A stretch of DNA of 22,092 nucleotides from a virus. The DNA lies in IMG/VR virus record IMGVR_UViG_3300024518_001502, positions 1 to 22,092 of that record; one strand, written 5' to 3'. Position numbers and translations under genes: made by a program. Shown here piece after piece: positions 1,816 through 14,528 of this stretch. A model generated the notes under the pieces. It did no database searches, was not told the origin of the DNA, and saw only the letters and a list, made by a program, of their open reading frames with translations. How positions within the stretch are numbered: position 1 is the stretch's first letter; each line of letters starts with the position of its first letter.

Positions 1816-3390
1816 TTGAGTATTAGTCCGGGAACTATTCCTGCTCCAGTAGCTGGGATTAACTCCATATCATCACTTGCAGCAATGCAAGGGAGTGATG
1901 CCATCTATACTAAGAATATAGATGGCACTTCTCTTGGGTGTAAAGTTCGCCCGGGATATGCTGAGTGGGCGAACGGCTATGCCGGAGATGAGGTTAAGAC
2001 AGTCATCCCATACAAAGGAACTTTAGAGGATGGGACCAAGGACAAGCTCTTTGCTTGTACTTCTAACGGTATCTACGATATCACTGCCTCTACTGAATCG
2101 CCTACTCTAGATCATGGTTGGGGTATAACTTCTAGTGATGCGGGCTGGTGCTCGTATGAAGTGTTCACTAATGATGCCGGAGCACGAGTACTCATGGTGT
2201 GCGATTTAGCTAACGGCTACCGCATATACACAGAGTCAACTGATCTGTGGACAACTCCGACGATTACTGGTCCTACTGGTGGTGCAGCAGACCTTGTATT
2301 CCTTGCTTCTTGGAAAAACAGAGTCTGGTTTATAGAGAAAGATACTAACTCAGCATGGTACACGGGCATTGGAGTCTTTCAAGGTGCGGTCACAGAATTC
2401 AATTTTGGTAACAAACTTCGCTATGGTGGGAATCTTAAATCTTTACACGGGTGGACTCTTGATTCAGGGGTTGGTCCTGATGACTACCTTGTAGTTCTGG
2501 GGTCTGCTGGGGATGTTCTTGTTTATGCGGGAACTAACCCCACTAGTTCTAGTACTTTTGGCCAGATTGGGGCATTCTACATAGGGGATATACCCAAAGG
2601 TAGACGATGTGGTCTCTCTGTGGGCGGGGACCTGTACCTTCTTTCAACGTATGGGGTTATTTCTGCTCGTGATCTTCTTAGTGGGCAGAACCCGTATACT
2701 TACGAGGGCAGTCTCAGCTATAAGATCAATCCTCTTCTTCGGGCTTCTTTAAAGAACGACCCTAATTCTTTTGGCTGGGAACTACAGGTTCTTCCTGACC
2801 TAGCTAAGATTATAGTGACAGTACCTAAAGAAACAAACCAGCAACATCTTCAGTATGTCTATGATATGAATATGCAGAGTTGGGGCATTTGGAATGGTGT
2901 TCCCATGACTACTGTGGTTACATGGAAGAATGAAGTGTACAGCGGGGCTGTTCTAAAGGTACATAAGATTACTGGTACTTTAGACAATGTGCTCATCACT
3001 TCCCCTGCCCCGGATCCGATTTATTGGTCACTTTTGACAGCATACAATGAAATGCAGAGTCCCCAAATGAACAAGATCGTTGAGTTTATTCGTCCGAGGT
3101 TCGTAGCTGAAGGAGAGCCGTCAGTTGATGTTAAGGCATTCTTTGATTACGACTTATCTGAACTTGTACGAGCATCAATTGTTGGTAGTGGCACAGATAT
3201 CTGGGACACAGGTACTTGGGATGCAGCTATCTGGGGAGGAGGTCAAGATAGGTTCCAAAATCTTGAAGGAGCATCAGGTATGGGTAAGACAGTCGCAGTA
3301 GCTTTAGCGGGTGCTTCTACTCTTTCCACTACTCTAGTTGATCTTGGCATCTTATGGCGAACAGCTTCTAGTAATAGAGGCTTGATATGA
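1816..3390 (+). CDS. P22 gp10-like DNA stabilisation / tail hub protein
   Basis: The 524-aa product opens with PAPVAGINSISSLAAMQGSD and then VRPGYAEWANGYAGDEVKT. This is the signature of the family of packaged-DNA stabilisation or tail-tube-B-like proteins (variants of GGIN..DSLA.MP..DA....N....VRKGY...ATG). The rest is a repeating beta-strand pattern, consistent with a beta-propeller-like hub. It would close the portal channel and carry the fibres. The start is a TTG, the first possible start after an in-frame stop at 1798, with only a weak GGGG (1805-1808) 7 nt upstream. Initiation may therefore depend on termination of the upstream gene 3 nt away. The 3' end overlaps the next start as ATGA. 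Confidence 0.75.
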   Translation: MSISPGTIPAPVAGINSISSLAAMQGSDAIYTKNIDGTSLGCKVRPGYAEWANGYAGDEVKTVIPYKGTLEDGTKDKLFACTSNGIYDITASTESPTLDHGWGITSSDAGWCSYEVFTNDAGARVLMVCDLANGYRIYTESTDLWTTPTITGPTGGAADLVFLASWKNRVWFIEKDTNSAWYTGIGVFQGAVTEFNFGNKLRYGGNLKSLHGWTLDSGVGPDDYLVVLGSAGDVLVYAGTNPTSSSTFGQIGAFYIGDIPKGRRCGLSVGGDLYLLSTYGVISARDLLSGQNPYTYEGSLSYKINPLLRASLKNDPNSFGWELQVLPDLAKIIVTVPKETNQQHLQYVYDMNMQSWGIWNGVPMTTVVTWKNEVYSGAVLKVHKITGTLDNVLITSPAPDPIYWSLLTAYNEMQSPQMNKIVEFIRPRFVAEGEPSVDVKAFFDYDLSELVRASIVGSGTDIWDTGTWDAAIWGGGQDRFQNLEGASGMGKTVAVALAGASTLSTTLVDLGILWRTASSNRGLI

Positions 3391-11248: not shown

Positions 11249-11383
11249 TCATGCTATACGGTCTAGGTAGAACCCAGCAAATTGGAGTATAAAAATTCCA
11301 ACAAGAGTCCATCGTATGTGAAGTACGTTCTTGTACAACCCGTGAGTAAAATCCTCAATGGGCATATCTCCATGATCATCCAA
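11249..11383 (-). CDS. small single-pass membrane protein, 44 aa
   Basis: A frame from TTG at 11383 to TGA at 11249 encodes 44 residues with an acidic, His-containing N-terminus (MDDHGDMPIEDFTHG) and one hydrophobic segment (WTLVGIFILQFAGFYL) ending in DRIA. GAGGAG stands 8 nt before the TTG, inside the end of the upstream HD gene; an in-frame ATG at 11365 is an alternative start, but its GGAG is only 2 nt away. It overlaps the HD gene by 8 nt, as expected for a coupled gene in this compact genome. The basic residues before the segment (K, H, R) and the single acidic-basic tail do not settle topology. Function unknown. Confidence 0.55.
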   Translation of the reverse strand: MDDHGDMPIEDFTHGLYKNVLHIRWTLVGIFILQFAGFYLDRIA

Positions 11384-11909
11384 AATGTATTCTCCTCACC
11401 CTAAGTTGATAATCAATATCATGCCTAAGCTCTTTCAATATTGCTTGGGCACTACTGGGTAATTTTACCCCGTCTAGTATTCGCAAGCCAGTTTCAAGAG
11501 CAGGTTTTAATTCCAAGTTCCCTTTGGTAACTTCATCCATAGCTGCATAGGTAAGATCCAGTATATCAGCAGCTTTGAACACATCGTACTCCATGCCGCT
11601 TAGAGTGGGTATATCGAGCTCATTAACAAACAGAAATCTTTCTTCAGCTTTGTCCAACGTTTGCTTTACTACTGGATTTCTGGCTTTGAAAGGGTAGGGA
11701 ATATCACCAGTCCATTGTTCTGCTAAGTCGTGCATCAAAGCATACATGATTAACTTTTTCGTGCATTTCTCCCCCAATAGAATACTGCACAACATAGCGA
11801 CATTCGCGCTATGCTGACCGATAGTATCTGGTACTATCGTCGGGTTAGCGTGATACCGAAGTACCCGATATCCTCGCCTAATTATTTCTACGCGCTGCCC
11901 ATTCTTCAC
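11376..11909 (-). CDS. HD-domain nucleotide phosphohydrolase (YfbR/DatZ-like)
   Basis: The 177-aa protein has the HD superfamily metal residues in order: His33 (TIGQHSANVAML), His60-Asp61 (ALMHDLAEQWTGDIPYPF) and Asp115 (FKAADILDL). The RYH...P..PDT.G.HS beginning and Glu64 are typical of 5'-deoxynucleotidase YfbR-type and phage dNTPase (DatZ-type) enzymes. The start is GTG 11909 with GGAG 8 nt upstream, so it overlaps the upstream thymidylate synthase-fold gene by 32 nt. It would remove phosphate from deoxynucleotides, recycling host nucleotides or lowering a competing canonical pool. Substrate cannot be read from sequence. Tight coupling to the synthase gene suggests joint action on the dNTP pool. 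Confidence 0.85.
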   Translation of the reverse strand: MKNGQRVEIIRRGYRVLRYHANPTIVPDTIGQHSANVAMLCSILLGEKCTKKLIMYALMHDLAEQWTGDIPYPFKARNPVVKQTLDKAEERFLFVNELDIPTLSGMEYDVFKAADILDLTYAAMDEVTKGNLELKPALETGLRILDGVKLPSSAQAILKELRHDIDYQLRVRRIHFG

Positions 11910-12834
11910 AAGCTATTCTCCAGTCATCTGCTGCTATTTTTTCAATGTAATAGTGCCTATTCTTTTTATCCACATAGGCATCATGAATTGGCGCTCCCAC
12001 ATTATTCATCCAAGTAGTTAAGAATTTGTAGCCTCCTGCTCTTACTAAGCGCAATAAAGTCTTACAATCTATAATGAAGTTCTCCCAATCTTCACCGTAC
12101 TGTAGTAGTGGGAATGATTGAAATGCTTCGTAGGTATCATAGCATTCTGTGCTCGTATACAGTTCTTCAAACTTCGGCATACCTGTGTAGATATGCAGGT
12201 TATTAGTGAACACATGGTAAGTCCCCTGTTTCATACCCACAGCTCTACTGATTAATTCGTGAAGCATGGTCATATGCACAGCATTCGCACCCATCATCCC
12301 CCAGATTAAATCATTTGATCTATTACAAACAGTCATGTTTAGTCTGTTGTCTTTATCTTTTCTGAAATAGATATGCGTATTGCATGGCCGGTCCGATGTT
12401 CTGGCTCTGTAACCATCGAAAACTGGATCCCACATCGTAAGAACTGCTTGACGTGTTTCGGGAGATGTCTGTAAAAGGCGTATGGTATCAGAAATTTGCG
12501 GTGAAGGATTGGTCCATCGCCAGCCGTAGGCTCCACGGAGAATTTTATTATCAGCATACTCTATCATCCTTTTGTTAAACTGGCTCAACCACACAGCATC
12601 GTTAGAACCTGCCATCATCCACACAAACTCCATACAATGAAAGAAAGGGTTAGCATCTCTAACAGGGTCGGTAAGGACACGTTCCCACGGTCTTTCTATA
12701 GTCAGCACAACGGGGTGAGGAATAGCTATCACTTCTCCGCCTCTACTGTTCTCTTTTTCCCCGTATGTACGCATCTTCCACAAAGCTTCTGTATATGCCT
12801 GTGGCACATTGGCCCCATAGATTTCAATAATCAT
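11878..12834 (-). CDS. thymidylate synthase-fold enzyme (thymidylate synthase or dUMP/dCMP hydroxymethylase)
   Basis: The 318-aa protein has the thymidylate synthase core: catalytic Cys151 in DRPCNTH, phosphate-binding Arg128 (ETRQAV) and Arg171 in NRSNDLIW, Asn184 in GANAVH, and His214/Tyr216 in NNLHIY. The folate-side Glu is Glu69 (MEFVWMMAG). Instead of the ThyA LGLPFN motif it has WGMMGANAVH, and by eye the Trp pair of ThyA (W80, W83) aligns to Met90 and Tyr93 in RMIEYAD. These features belong to the phage branch annotated either as thymidylate synthase or as pyrimidine hydroxymethylase, which transfers a one-carbon unit from methylene-THF and adds water rather than reducing. AAGGG precedes ATG 12834. 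Its neighbours favour hydroxymethylation; this is inferred. Confidence 0.85.
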   Translation of the reverse strand: MIIEIYGANVPQAYTEALWKMRTYGEKENSRGGEVIAIPHPVVLTIERPWERVLTDPVRDANPFFHCMEFVWMMAGSNDAVWLSQFNKRMIEYADNKILRGAYGWRWTNPSPQISDTIRLLQTSPETRQAVLTMWDPVFDGYRARTSDRPCNTHIYFRKDKDNRLNMTVCNRSNDLIWGMMGANAVHMTMLHELISRAVGMKQGTYHVFTNNLHIYTGMPKFEELYTSTECYDTYEAFQSFPLLQYGEDWENFIIDCKTLLRLVRAGGYKFLTTWMNNVGAPIHDAYVDKKNRHYYIEKIAADDWRIACEEWAARRNN

Positions 12835-12956
12835 GCTTGTAACCCTTTGTTTTTACTGCGGTTTACTACAGACTTGGTCGACTGGCTGTTTTTTTGGCAA
12901 TAGCTAGGCAAGGGGCTACCCGGGATTATGCGTCGAGCGGCCACTGGTAAAGCCAT
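12831..12956 (-). CDS. candidate small basic protein, 41 aa
   Basis: A frame runs from ATG 12956 to TGA 12831, filling the gap between the helical-domain gene (stop 2 nt before the ATG) and the thymidylate synthase-fold gene (ATGA overlap at 12831-12834). The product starts MALPVAARRIIPGSPLPSY and is Lys/Arg/Asn/Ser-rich afterwards, with one Cys. The upstream sequence GGCGGGAACTAAAT offers only a weak ribosome site. The exact fit and 4-nt stop/start overlap argue for translation; the weak site and unremarkable composition argue against. If it is not coding, this 124-nt stretch is an untranslated leader of the synthase gene. Confidence 0.4.
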   Translation of the reverse strand: MALPVAARRIIPGSPLPSYCQKNSQSTKSVVNRSKNKGLQA

Positions 12957-12958
12957 AT

Positions 12959-13786
12959 TTAGTTCCCGCCGTTGTATTTGCGCTTAGACCTACCTGTACC
13001 TGTGAGAACACGGCAATACTTGTCAAACTCGCACATACAGTTCTGCAAGTCTTGCATTTCGCCGATCCAATAAAGGTCATCTGCCACACCTCTGATTAAA
13101 CGAGGATACTCACCTGGAGTAACCTTATCATGCTCCCAGTACCACGCCAGCCCTCTAAGGCTCCCCGGTCCTGGGGCGCTGAAGCTCATCCGGTCGTCTG
13201 CATTTTGGAGAACGTGTCCTTCAGTATTTTTTAAGTCAGCCACTACCTGAGCAGCAAGGAAGCTGCCAATACCGTCTATTATCATAAGGCGATCATAGTA
13301 TTCTCGGCAAGTAGTTCCATGCTTGTATGGTAAGAGCATGTTAGCTTCTTGTAGTAGTTCTACGCAATAGTCTATCTTCGACATCTTCTGACCATGCGTA
13401 GTTATCAGGTACGCCCCGCCCCATATCTGAATCTTCTCTTTCTGAAGATCCTCCAGCATAGAAGCTAGTGTGTTCATTCGGTAAGGGTTCAGGTAGCCCA
13501 GTACTCGTAGCAACGTAGGTGGATAATTGAATATCCTAGCTGCCACCATACCTAGTTCAAGGCTTTGGCTTAGAGAATTATAGGTGTAGTTCTCTCTAAC
13601 CCATTTTGTTACTCTATCATCCTCACGATGTACATTGGTGAAATACGTAGTCTGAAAAACTCTATCATCACTCCAAGGACGAGGTTCTCCATCCTCTTTA
13701 AGAACTCTAATCGCTTCTCGTTCCTCTATCCAGTATGCCAGCAACTCCGGCGGCGTGTAACTTTTTCCATTGACCTCGAAAATCAA
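12959..13786 (-). CDS. 5-hmdU DNA kinase helical-domain family protein (ex alpha-glutamyl/putrescinyl thymidine pyrophosphorylase family)
   Basis: I set the start at TTG 13786 because GGGAGG stands 8 nt upstream; a TTG at 13828 would add 14 residues. Of 275 residues, the recognisable family pattern is: IEEREAIR and EPRPWSDD (N-terminus), FTNVHREDDRVTKWV (from residue 49), WGGAYLITTHG (about 122-132), a hairpin-like IDGIGSFLAAQVVADLK (170-186), DDRMSF (197-202), GPGSLRGL (206-213) and LQNCMCEFDKY (247-257) before a basic tail. This helical, DNA-glycosylase-like fold is known from enzymes acting on 5-hydroxymethyl-dU in phage DNA and from standalone proteins of unknown activity. No P-loop kinase domain is present. 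It overlaps the glycosyltransferase gene by 80 nt. Confidence 0.78.
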   Translation of the reverse strand: MIFEVNGKSYTPPELLAYWIEEREAIRVLKEDGEPRPWSDDRVFQTTYFTNVHREDDRVTKWVRENYTYNSLSQSLELGMVAARIFNYPPTLLRVLGYLNPYRMNTLASMLEDLQKEKIQIWGGAYLITTHGQKMSKIDYCVELLQEANMLLPYKHGTTCREYYDRLMIIDGIGSFLAAQVVADLKNTEGHVLQNADDRMSFSAPGPGSLRGLAWYWEHDKVTPGEYPRLIRGVADDLYWIGEMQDLQNCMCEFDKYCRVLTGTGRSKRKYNGGN

Positions 13787-14528
13787 CTCGCTTACCTCCC
13801 AGCCAACCACTCTTGGCTTCTTTTTCAACAGCTTTGATATAAGGACCGAAGCGTTCTTCCAACCAGTAACAGGCTTCGGCTTGCATTTCTGGTGTCCGAG
13901 AGAGGGAACACCCTCCGTCAGCTTGGCACGGATACCAGTCTATGAATAATGTAGTAATGATCTTGTTCCCCTGCCCGCGTTCTAGTAGTGTAGCGTTGAG
14001 TACTACGTCAGCAAGGATAGGGAACCTATTGAGATTAGGAATGCTACCAATGAGACTACGATTAAATCCTTGAACACACACAATCTTACCATTCTCAACA
14101 TATGGCGGCTCCTTTGTGTGACCCATCTGGCGGGGATGAAAGGAAACGAGAGCCGTATCGTCCAGTAAACTTTCCATGAATTGGAACCCTTCTTCAATTC
14201 GCTTGCCTGAATCTCCTGGCCCGATAGTTTGGAGACGACGCGCCCCGTCATCGCGTTGATACGGATATGAGAACTTAAGATCGTCATCTATTATTACTCC
14301 TTTGGTGTACCCGTCTTTTAGTTCGAGTATCCACTTAAATTTGTCGCTATAGTTATGCACCCATTGAGGAGATCCTATAAGGACTTCCTTTGGTATACCA
14401 GAATCTATATGCAGTTGTTTTTCTGCCATAGGACATACGATGTATGTCCTCCTGCGAAGTTGGTCTGGGAGAGCATTCCATGTGTGCTGCCGGTTGACTC
14501 GTCCCTTCGTCATAATGTATATGTTCAT
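13707..14528 (-). CDS. GT-A fold glycosyltransferase, TAGT-like (possible DNA base glycosyltransferase)
   Basis: The 273-aa protein begins IYIMTKGRVNRQHTWNALPD, a start typical of phage GT-A enzymes of the TET-associated glycosyltransferase type (I...gR....TW..LP...). Residues 77-86 (GVIIDDDLKF) hold the DDD metal/sugar-nucleotide motif on a buried strand. An ADVVLNATLLERG segment (173-185) offers the second acidic residue common in these folds, and WYPCQADGGCS (198-208) follows. No membrane segment or signal peptide, so it should be cytoplasmic. The ATG at 14528 overlaps the lipoprotein stop (ATGA). Its last 27 codons share DNA with the next gene in another frame. With the neighbouring base-modification family genes, a DNA acceptor is the favoured idea; a protein or polysaccharide acceptor is possible. 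Confidence 0.72.
   Translation of the reverse strand: MNIYIMTKGRVNRQHTWNALPDQLRRRTYIVCPMAEKQLHIDSGIPKEVLIGSPQWVHNYSDKFKWILELKDGYTKGVIIDDDLKFSYPYQRDDGARRLQTIGPGDSGKRIEEGFQFMESLLDDTALVSFHPRQMGHTKEPPYVENGKIVCVQGFNRSLIGSIPNLNRFPILADVVLNATLLERGQGNKIITTLFIDWYPCQADGGCSLSRTPEMQAEACYWLEERFGPYIKAVEKEAKSGWLGGKRVDFRGQWKKLHAAGVAGILDRGTRSD

Follow-up and report, generated by a model that had tools for sequence, protein, structure and literature searches.

Pseudomonas phages M6 (5-NedU) and PaMx11 (GlyT/5-NmdU) modify their DNA by way of 5-hydroxymethyldeoxyuridine (5-hmdU), and both encode a P-loop 5-hmdU DNA kinase and an amino-acid:DNA transferase (AADT). The gene order in M6, with the roles of the individual genes taken from Pfam names, PDB titles and citing papers, is gp54 (PF18748, 5-hmdU DNA kinase), gp55 (HMUDK_hel), gp58 (thymidylate synthase, TS) and gp59 (HD), with gp51 (ADDT) upstream. 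In PaMx11 the order is gp46 (ADDT), gp47, gp48, gp49 (P-loop), gp50 (HMUDK_hel), gp51 (TS) and gp52 (HD). Here we analyzed a four-gene cassette in the IMG/VR virus record IMGVR_UViG_3300024518_001502, a DNA stretch of 22,092 bases whose full length we refer to as the window; the record is a fragment, and further genes may lie beyond its ends. The cassette shares with M6 and PaMx11 the order HMUDK_hel protein (hel) - hydroxymethylase - HD protein near DNA polymerase I, with identities of 26-30% for hel and 34-37% for the hydroxymethylase, and a homologous HD protein. In contrast to these phages, a glycosyltransferase (GT) occupies the slot of the kinase, and neither a kinase nor an AADT was found.

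Brevibacterium phage LuckyBarnes, a cultured phage with a complete genome of 50.8 kb, resembles the window in that a TS-fold enzyme, GTs of the TAGT family and hel are adjacent (gp38-gp41) and that kinase and AADT are missing. It differs in the order of the genes (TS-GT-GT-hel), in having two tandem GTs and a C-terminal extension of the TS-fold enzyme, and in that no HD gene was found nearby. According to a 2022 listing, HTVC023P-type pelagiphages carry the same gene set as co-located auxiliary metabolic genes that may broaden function (PMC9599517). The combination, for which the original prediction, made from the letters of the window alone, had proposed a distinct route, is therefore not unique to the window. 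The 2022 listing describes neither an exchange of kinase and GT nor a mechanism, and it includes no test of residues or fold.

A product like the one predicted for the window is base J (beta-D-glucosyl-hydroxymethyluracil) of kinetoplastids, in which a sugar is O-linked to 5-hydroxymethyluracil in DNA. Base J is synthesized from T in DNA that is oxidized by JBP/TET enzymes, whereas the route of the window would make 5-hmdU at the nucleotide level. Glucosylated 5-hmdU was stated to be unreported in phages in 2019 (PMC6449724), and we found no later report of it in phage DNA in the literature searched, which is poor in subscription papers.

Organization of the cassette

The genes are located on the minus strand and are given here in the order of transcription:

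13707..14528, minus strand: GT-A glycosyltransferase of 273 aa, TAGT / T6 beta-glucosyl-HMC-alpha-glucosyltransferase-like, putative 5-hmdU-DNA glycosyltransferase (Pfam TAGT, PHROG_842, AlphaFold, Foldseek)
12959..13786, minus strand: HMUDK_hel family protein (hel) of 275 aa, putative DNA/base-handling partner (Pfam PF18723, AlphaFold, structural match)
11878..12834, minus strand: putative dUMP 5-hydroxymethylase of 318 aa with thymidylate-synthase fold (PHROG_5131, Pfam, residues)
11376..11909, minus strand: HD-domain phosphohydrolase of 177 aa, YfbR 5'-deoxynucleotidase-like (Pfam YfbR-like, PHROG_7076, HD motif)

All four family assignments of the original prediction hold in Pfam and PHROG profile searches, and so do the location and strand of the genes. 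They had also been described as contiguous and overlapping, which is true of GT and hel (80 bp) and of the TS-fold and HD genes (32 bp), but hel and the TS-fold gene are separated by 124 bp. The predicted extent of hel is also upheld: although its open frame reaches further, to a TTG at 13828, the best start is the TTG at 13786, which has a GGAGG ribosome-binding site just upstream. The same gene order was found in many divergent phage contigs, and the arrangement is therefore far beyond chance.

In-house hidden Markov models (HMMs) for the kinase and ADDT, which do detect M6 and PaMx11, gave no match in the window, in agreement with the original prediction that no P-loop kinase or amino-acid transferase is in view. 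The Tet_JBP profile and the kinase profile of another tool did not match the window either, and that tool was likewise silent on its positive-control genomes.

Kinase and glycosyltransferase genes replace each other beside hel

Homologous loci were gathered in three scans of viral contigs, the final one keeping 80 of 574 matched relatives. All open reading frames (ORFs) in the six frames were then searched with HMMs built from proteins of the window, M6, PaMx11, LuckyBarnes and MW202897. Among 130 hel loci, 85 contain the GT, 27 the kinase and none both; ADDT is present in 10 of the 130, every one of them with a kinase. Proteins of the window itself served as seeds for the sample, which biases the ratio of GT to kinase; this bias does not explain the absence of co-occurrence. 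In a set of 79 rows, whose viral members are non-redundant at 80% identity, 53 have the GT in the slot and 16 the kinase; a GT4-like GT-B gene fills it in two (L019, L090) and an unassigned gene in another two (L020, L113), leaving six with none or a contig edge. The mutual exclusion of GT and kinase in this set has a Fisher P of 2.5e-10, uncorrected for shared ancestry. Whole-record Pfam scans of 50 records gave the same picture, with TAGT in 24, PF18748 in nine, ADDT in seven, and TAGT together with either of the others in no record. The 5-hmdU DNA kinase and AADT of an M6-type pathway were thus found neither in the window fragment nor in any GT-carrying relative. A second 5-hmdU kinase family, PF18747, was considered as a hidden kinase in GT genomes and was rejected: it was detected only in ViI, apart from a weak hit in a kinase-carrying record.

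The partner gene of hel has been swapped repeatedly between kinase and GT. On a maximum-likelihood tree of hel (one tree), the GT requires 11 changes and the kinase 10, and well-supported branches force at least 9 and 8 of these, respectively. Examples are the pairing of L095 (kinase) with L132 (GT) and the cluster of L039 and L032 (kinase) with L028 and L137 (GT). In nearly all GT loci the GT is located directly 5' of hel, frequently overlapping it. The survey, in which the same gene set recurs with the GT in the kinase slot, is consistent with the 5-hmdU-based cassette that had been predicted.

In a few loci the slot 5' of hel holds other genes. Those of L019 (8692-10005) and L090 (8210-9439) are GT4-like, with a weak Glyco_transf_4 match (Pfam E ~2e-3). 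The slot of L020 (4561-5499), L113 (8875-9996) and L141 (5965-6906) contains a conserved protein, for which the Pfam scan of L020 and L113 gave no match; in these two loci it has remote matches only, to hypothetical proteins of two Escherichia phages, and it is possibly a further glycosyltransferase. Neither group was significantly similar to the T4 alpha-GT and beta-GT (hhalign P 0.019 and 0.076). Four hel loci on contigs of 31-70 kb (L029, L129, L130 and L055) have no TAGT, 5-hmdU kinase or ADDT anywhere in the record; in L029 and L129, UvrD-like helicase genes were seen by eye immediately upstream of hel.

Duplicated partner genes were also observed. L002 (8989-10600) and L028 (7852-9443) each contain a tandem pair of TAGT genes, whose enzymes could assemble a disaccharide on the base. 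In L044, L045, L046, L049, L050, L051 and L052, hel is preceded by two 5-hmdU kinase-like genes in tandem, and the HD gene is found about 6 kb downstream rather than right after the TS-fold gene. The kinase genes of M6 (gp54; L003:5695-6258) and PaMx11 (gp49; L006:8396-8965) are labeled "terminase small subunit" in GenBank, yet encode P-loop proteins. M6 gp54 matches PF18748 with an E value of 8e-18, the slot gene of a relative (L017) matches PHROG_800 "terminase small subunit", and the label on gp54 and gp49 is probably a propagated misannotation.

The thymidylate synthase-fold enzyme has the residues of a dUMP hydroxymethylase

The TS-fold enzyme matches Pfam Thymidylat_synt with 60 bits and PHROG_5131 with an E value of 1.6e-83, and it is 37% identical to M6 gp58. 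Its nucleophile is C151, followed by N152 (PCN motif), and N184 (GAN motif) is of the uracil type. These residues were aligned with those of SPO1 gp29 and T4 gp42, annotated as dUMP and dCMP hydroxymethylase, respectively, and M6 gp58. C151-N152 and N184 align with SPO1 gp29 and M6 gp58, and the PCN and GAN motifs are common to the window enzyme and SPO1 gp29, whereas T4 gp42 has an Asp at the position of N184. In the TS family, Asn or Asp at this position marks specificity for uracil or cytosine. C151, N152, D175 and N184 are invariant in all 130 homologues surveyed (86 with GT, 27 with kinase and 17 others).

These results bear on two alternatives. The first is that the TS-fold enzyme simply supplies dTMP and that its neighbours are morons with no connection to it, and the generic label "thymidylate synthase" in public records would fit this. 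The original prediction had noted a non-ThyA motif, and this is borne out: PCN replaces the PCH of ThyA, and the two tryptophans that ThyA has in its IWDEWAD segment are absent. Moreover, the nearest solved structures are of the CMP 5-hydroxymethylase MilA, ahead of every thymidylate synthase, and close phage relatives include the enzyme of M6, a phage carrying 5-hmdU-derived bases. We regard a role in thymidylate supply as extremely unlikely; the non-ThyA active-site region is suggestive of an enzyme that makes 5-hmdUMP and not dTMP.

The second alternative is a cytosine cassette, in which the enzyme would be a dCMP hydroxymethylase and the GT would glucosylate 5-hydroxymethylcytosine (hmC), as in T-even phages. 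TAGT/bgagt enzymes are indeed known to act on glucosyl-hmC DNA (PMC13216743, PMC13390438). However, N184 instead of the T4 gp42 Asp is found without exception, the PCN and GAN motifs agree with those of the SPO1 dUMP hydroxymethylase and M6 gp58, and elsewhere hel accompanies 5-hmdU kinases and AADTs, which makes this explanation very improbable.

The HD protein matches Pfam YfbR-like (PF12917) with 51.9 bits (cut-off 25.9) and PHROG_7076 (dATP triphosphohydrolase) with an E value of 5e-15. It contains the motif residues H33 and H60-D61, as the call of an HD nucleotidase had implied, and homologues are found in the same place in M6 (gp59) and PaMx11 (gp52). It may clear competing dTMP/dTTP.

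The glycosyltransferase belongs to a family of DNA glucosyltransferases

The GT passes the Pfam TAGT (PF20691) cut-off of 27.5 marginally, with 28.2 bits, and matches PHROG_842 (beta-glucosyl-HMC-alpha-glucosyltransferase) over nearly its full length (residues 1-256, E 2e-23). Its DxD motif, IIDDDL, corresponds to D81-D83, and D81, D82, D83, R133, D174, GG205-206 and W254 are invariant among 48 homologues. An AlphaFold model (pLDDT 93.9) retrieved GT-A proteins at a probability of 1.00 in Foldseek and annotated phage TAGT proteins in BFVD. Together, these data confirm the prediction of a TAGT-like GT-A transferase with the sequence IIDDDLKF. The T6 member of the TAGT family, identified as a GT-A enzyme, acts on DNA bases (PMC13216743, 2026). 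In T6, whose genome contains hmC and also encodes an alpha-GT, this enzyme extends glucosyl-hmC, whereas the TAGT of the window is solitary and is paired with a dUMP-type hydroxymethylase.

Alternatively, the GT might glycosylate a host surface polysaccharide or a virion protein, and merely lie next to the modification genes. GT-A is a generic fold, and the nearest solved structures are protein or polysaccharide GTs, with a Z score of 14 for polypeptide GalNAc-transferases. Its profile matches, however, place the GT in the TAGT/bgagt family of DNA glucosyltransferases and not in protein or polysaccharide glycosylation. In addition, a mere neighbour would not be expected to sit directly 5' of hel in nearly all GT loci, to be mutually exclusive with the kinase, or to be replaced independently by other, GT-B-like genes. 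Such a role is highly unlikely.

hel is probably a base-handling protein rather than a kinase

The original prediction placed the 12959-13786 protein in the HMUDK_hel family (PF18723), which is corroborated by a score of 115 bits (cut-off 25) over profile positions 6-276 of 281. It had further been described as a 5-hmdU kinase-family helical protein. PF18748 does not match the window hel, and a Walker A motif is present neither in it nor in any of its 75 homologues, as opposed to 35 of 36 kinase ORFs; hel is not fused to a P-loop domain, and neither is that of ViI. A kinase-like reading of hel is thus not sustained.

An AlphaFold model of hel built from 75 sequences (pLDDT 92.2) gave no Foldseek match with E < 0.001, the top one being a 3-methyladenine DNA glycosylase. 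With VIA-align, the best match was PaMx11 gp46 (8z2n), a 5-PmdU glycinyltransferase (Z 11.7, 215 residues, 4.2 A), followed by helix-hairpin-helix (HhH) 8-oxoguanine and 3-methyladenine DNA glycosylases and DUF2419 queuosine salvage enzymes (Z 8-10). The hel profile gave only chance antibody matches among PDB sequences. Assignment of hel as an AADT was rejected at the sequence level, with an hhalign probability of 0.2% against ADDT (PF18724) and no Pfam ADDT hit; the similarity is one of fold only.

Because hel lacks a Walker A motif and its modeled fold matches PaMx11 gp46 and HhH glycosylases, it is probably not a kinase but a base-handling DNA protein common to both routes. Since hel stays constant while the chemistry next to it takes two, and apparently more, forms, it most likely performs a task that these have in common, namely the recognition or exposure of 5-hmdU in DNA.

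The main rival to this view is that hel is itself a catalyst whose substrate in DNA is 5-hmdU, either bare or already phosphorylated or glycosylated, and that the GT or kinase supplies or competes for this substrate; it could perform a displacement as in PaMx11 gp46, or restore T. In agreement with this, 20 columns are invariant in 75 divergent homologues, many of them polar (R37, N65, R68, D71, K151, D198, C266, E267 and K270), the top structural match is to a transferase with 5-PmdU DNA as its substrate, and T and modified T are mixed in the DNA of M6-type phages (PMC6449724). On the other hand, separate ADDT genes already fill the AADT role in M6 and PaMx11, a cofactor site is not evident, and the conserved residues could equally bind DNA. 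We consider a catalytic hel rather unlikely.

HMUDK_hel genes without a nearby TS gene were found in bacteria: L150 (7461-8846), L154 (7299-8840) and L155 (7956-8837), from Ramlibacter, a planctomycete and a myxococcote metagenome-assembled genome. DNA adenine methyltransferase genes (Eco57I / N6_N4 MTase) are found no more than about 4 kb from them, and a use of hel in restriction or defence is possible. The domain aGPT-Pplase has been flagged as a predicted defence domain by DefensePredictor (PMC13092281).

Genomic context of the cassette

The minus-strand half of the window contains the replication genes for DNA polymerase A, exonuclease, endonuclease and helicase, downstream of which the cassette is located. 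The plus-strand half contains tail, virion and holin genes. The gene at 1816-3390 has phrog_5107 "amidase" as its top PHROG match (E 2.5e-80), yet it follows a tail-protein gene, and the label may be wrong.

Proposed pathway

The simplest interpretation is a 5-hmdU route whose final addition is a sugar rather than an amino acid. Profile searches, the residue comparisons and the homologous loci surveyed support the original proposal of a 5-hmdU hypermodification cassette, possibly with direct glycosylation of 5-hmdU in DNA. We consider it fairly probable that the cassette is a phage 5-hmdU glycosylation system, in which 5-hmdU is incorporated and then sugared in DNA in a base-J-like manner. We infer every reaction, the identity of the sugar and the role of hel from the observed gene families, their conserved order, the mutual exclusion and repeated switching, the type of the catalytic residues and the fold. 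The hydroxymethylase would convert dUMP into 5-hmdUMP, as its residues and homology suggest, and the HD enzyme would remove competing dTMP/dTTP, so that the polymerase could install 5-hmdU in place of T. The TAGT-family GT-A enzyme would then move a sugar from a nucleotide-sugar onto the CH2OH group of 5-hmdU in DNA. The resulting hypermodified base would resemble base J and may resist host nucleases. As a DNA-glycosylase/AADT-like helical protein, hel would expose or select 5-hmdU for its partner enzyme, the 5-hmdU DNA kinase in M6-type phages and the glycosyltransferase in the window.

Several observations weigh against this pathway. The TAGT score of the GT barely exceeds the cut-off, and the T6 TAGT sugars hmC that is already glucosylated, and not a bare hydroxymethyl group. 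The likeness between hel and AADTs is confined to the fold, the profile comparison with hhalign yielding nothing, and a Z score of 11.7 lies in the range that helical folds may reach by chance arrangement. Within the flanks searched, HD is present in 16 of 85 GT loci versus 23 of 27 kinase loci. Finally, MW202897, a complete circular genome of 40 kb, contains TAGT, hydroxymethylase and HD genes in the order GT-TS-HD and has no hel, which is therefore dispensable for some TAGT systems.

Implications

One protein is conserved while kinase and GT have been exchanged next to it repeatedly. This pattern points to hypermodification by a modular system, and it argues against taking HMUDK_hel for a part of the kinase. 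Tentatively, HMUDK_hel may be a general base-exposing module for 5-hmdU in DNA, with interchangeable partners: the kinase, whose route leads to amino-acid hypermodification, the TAGT-type GT-A enzyme, and at least one further GT type (GT-B); the evidence for GT-B and unassigned slot genes comes from few loci. Solitary TAGTs are carried by 288 of 753 phage genomes with GT homologues, and their role was left open (PMC13216743, 2026). Where such a TAGT occurs together with hel and a dUMP-type hydroxymethylase, the locus type described here suggests a specific role. If the modular view is correct, solitary TAGTs of this kind, so far without a known role, would be 5-hmdU glycosyltransferases. Many environmental phages would then carry base-J-like, sugar-modified thymine DNA derived at the nucleotide level, which would have a bearing on phage counter-defence, on the restriction of metagenomic DNA and on enzyme discovery.

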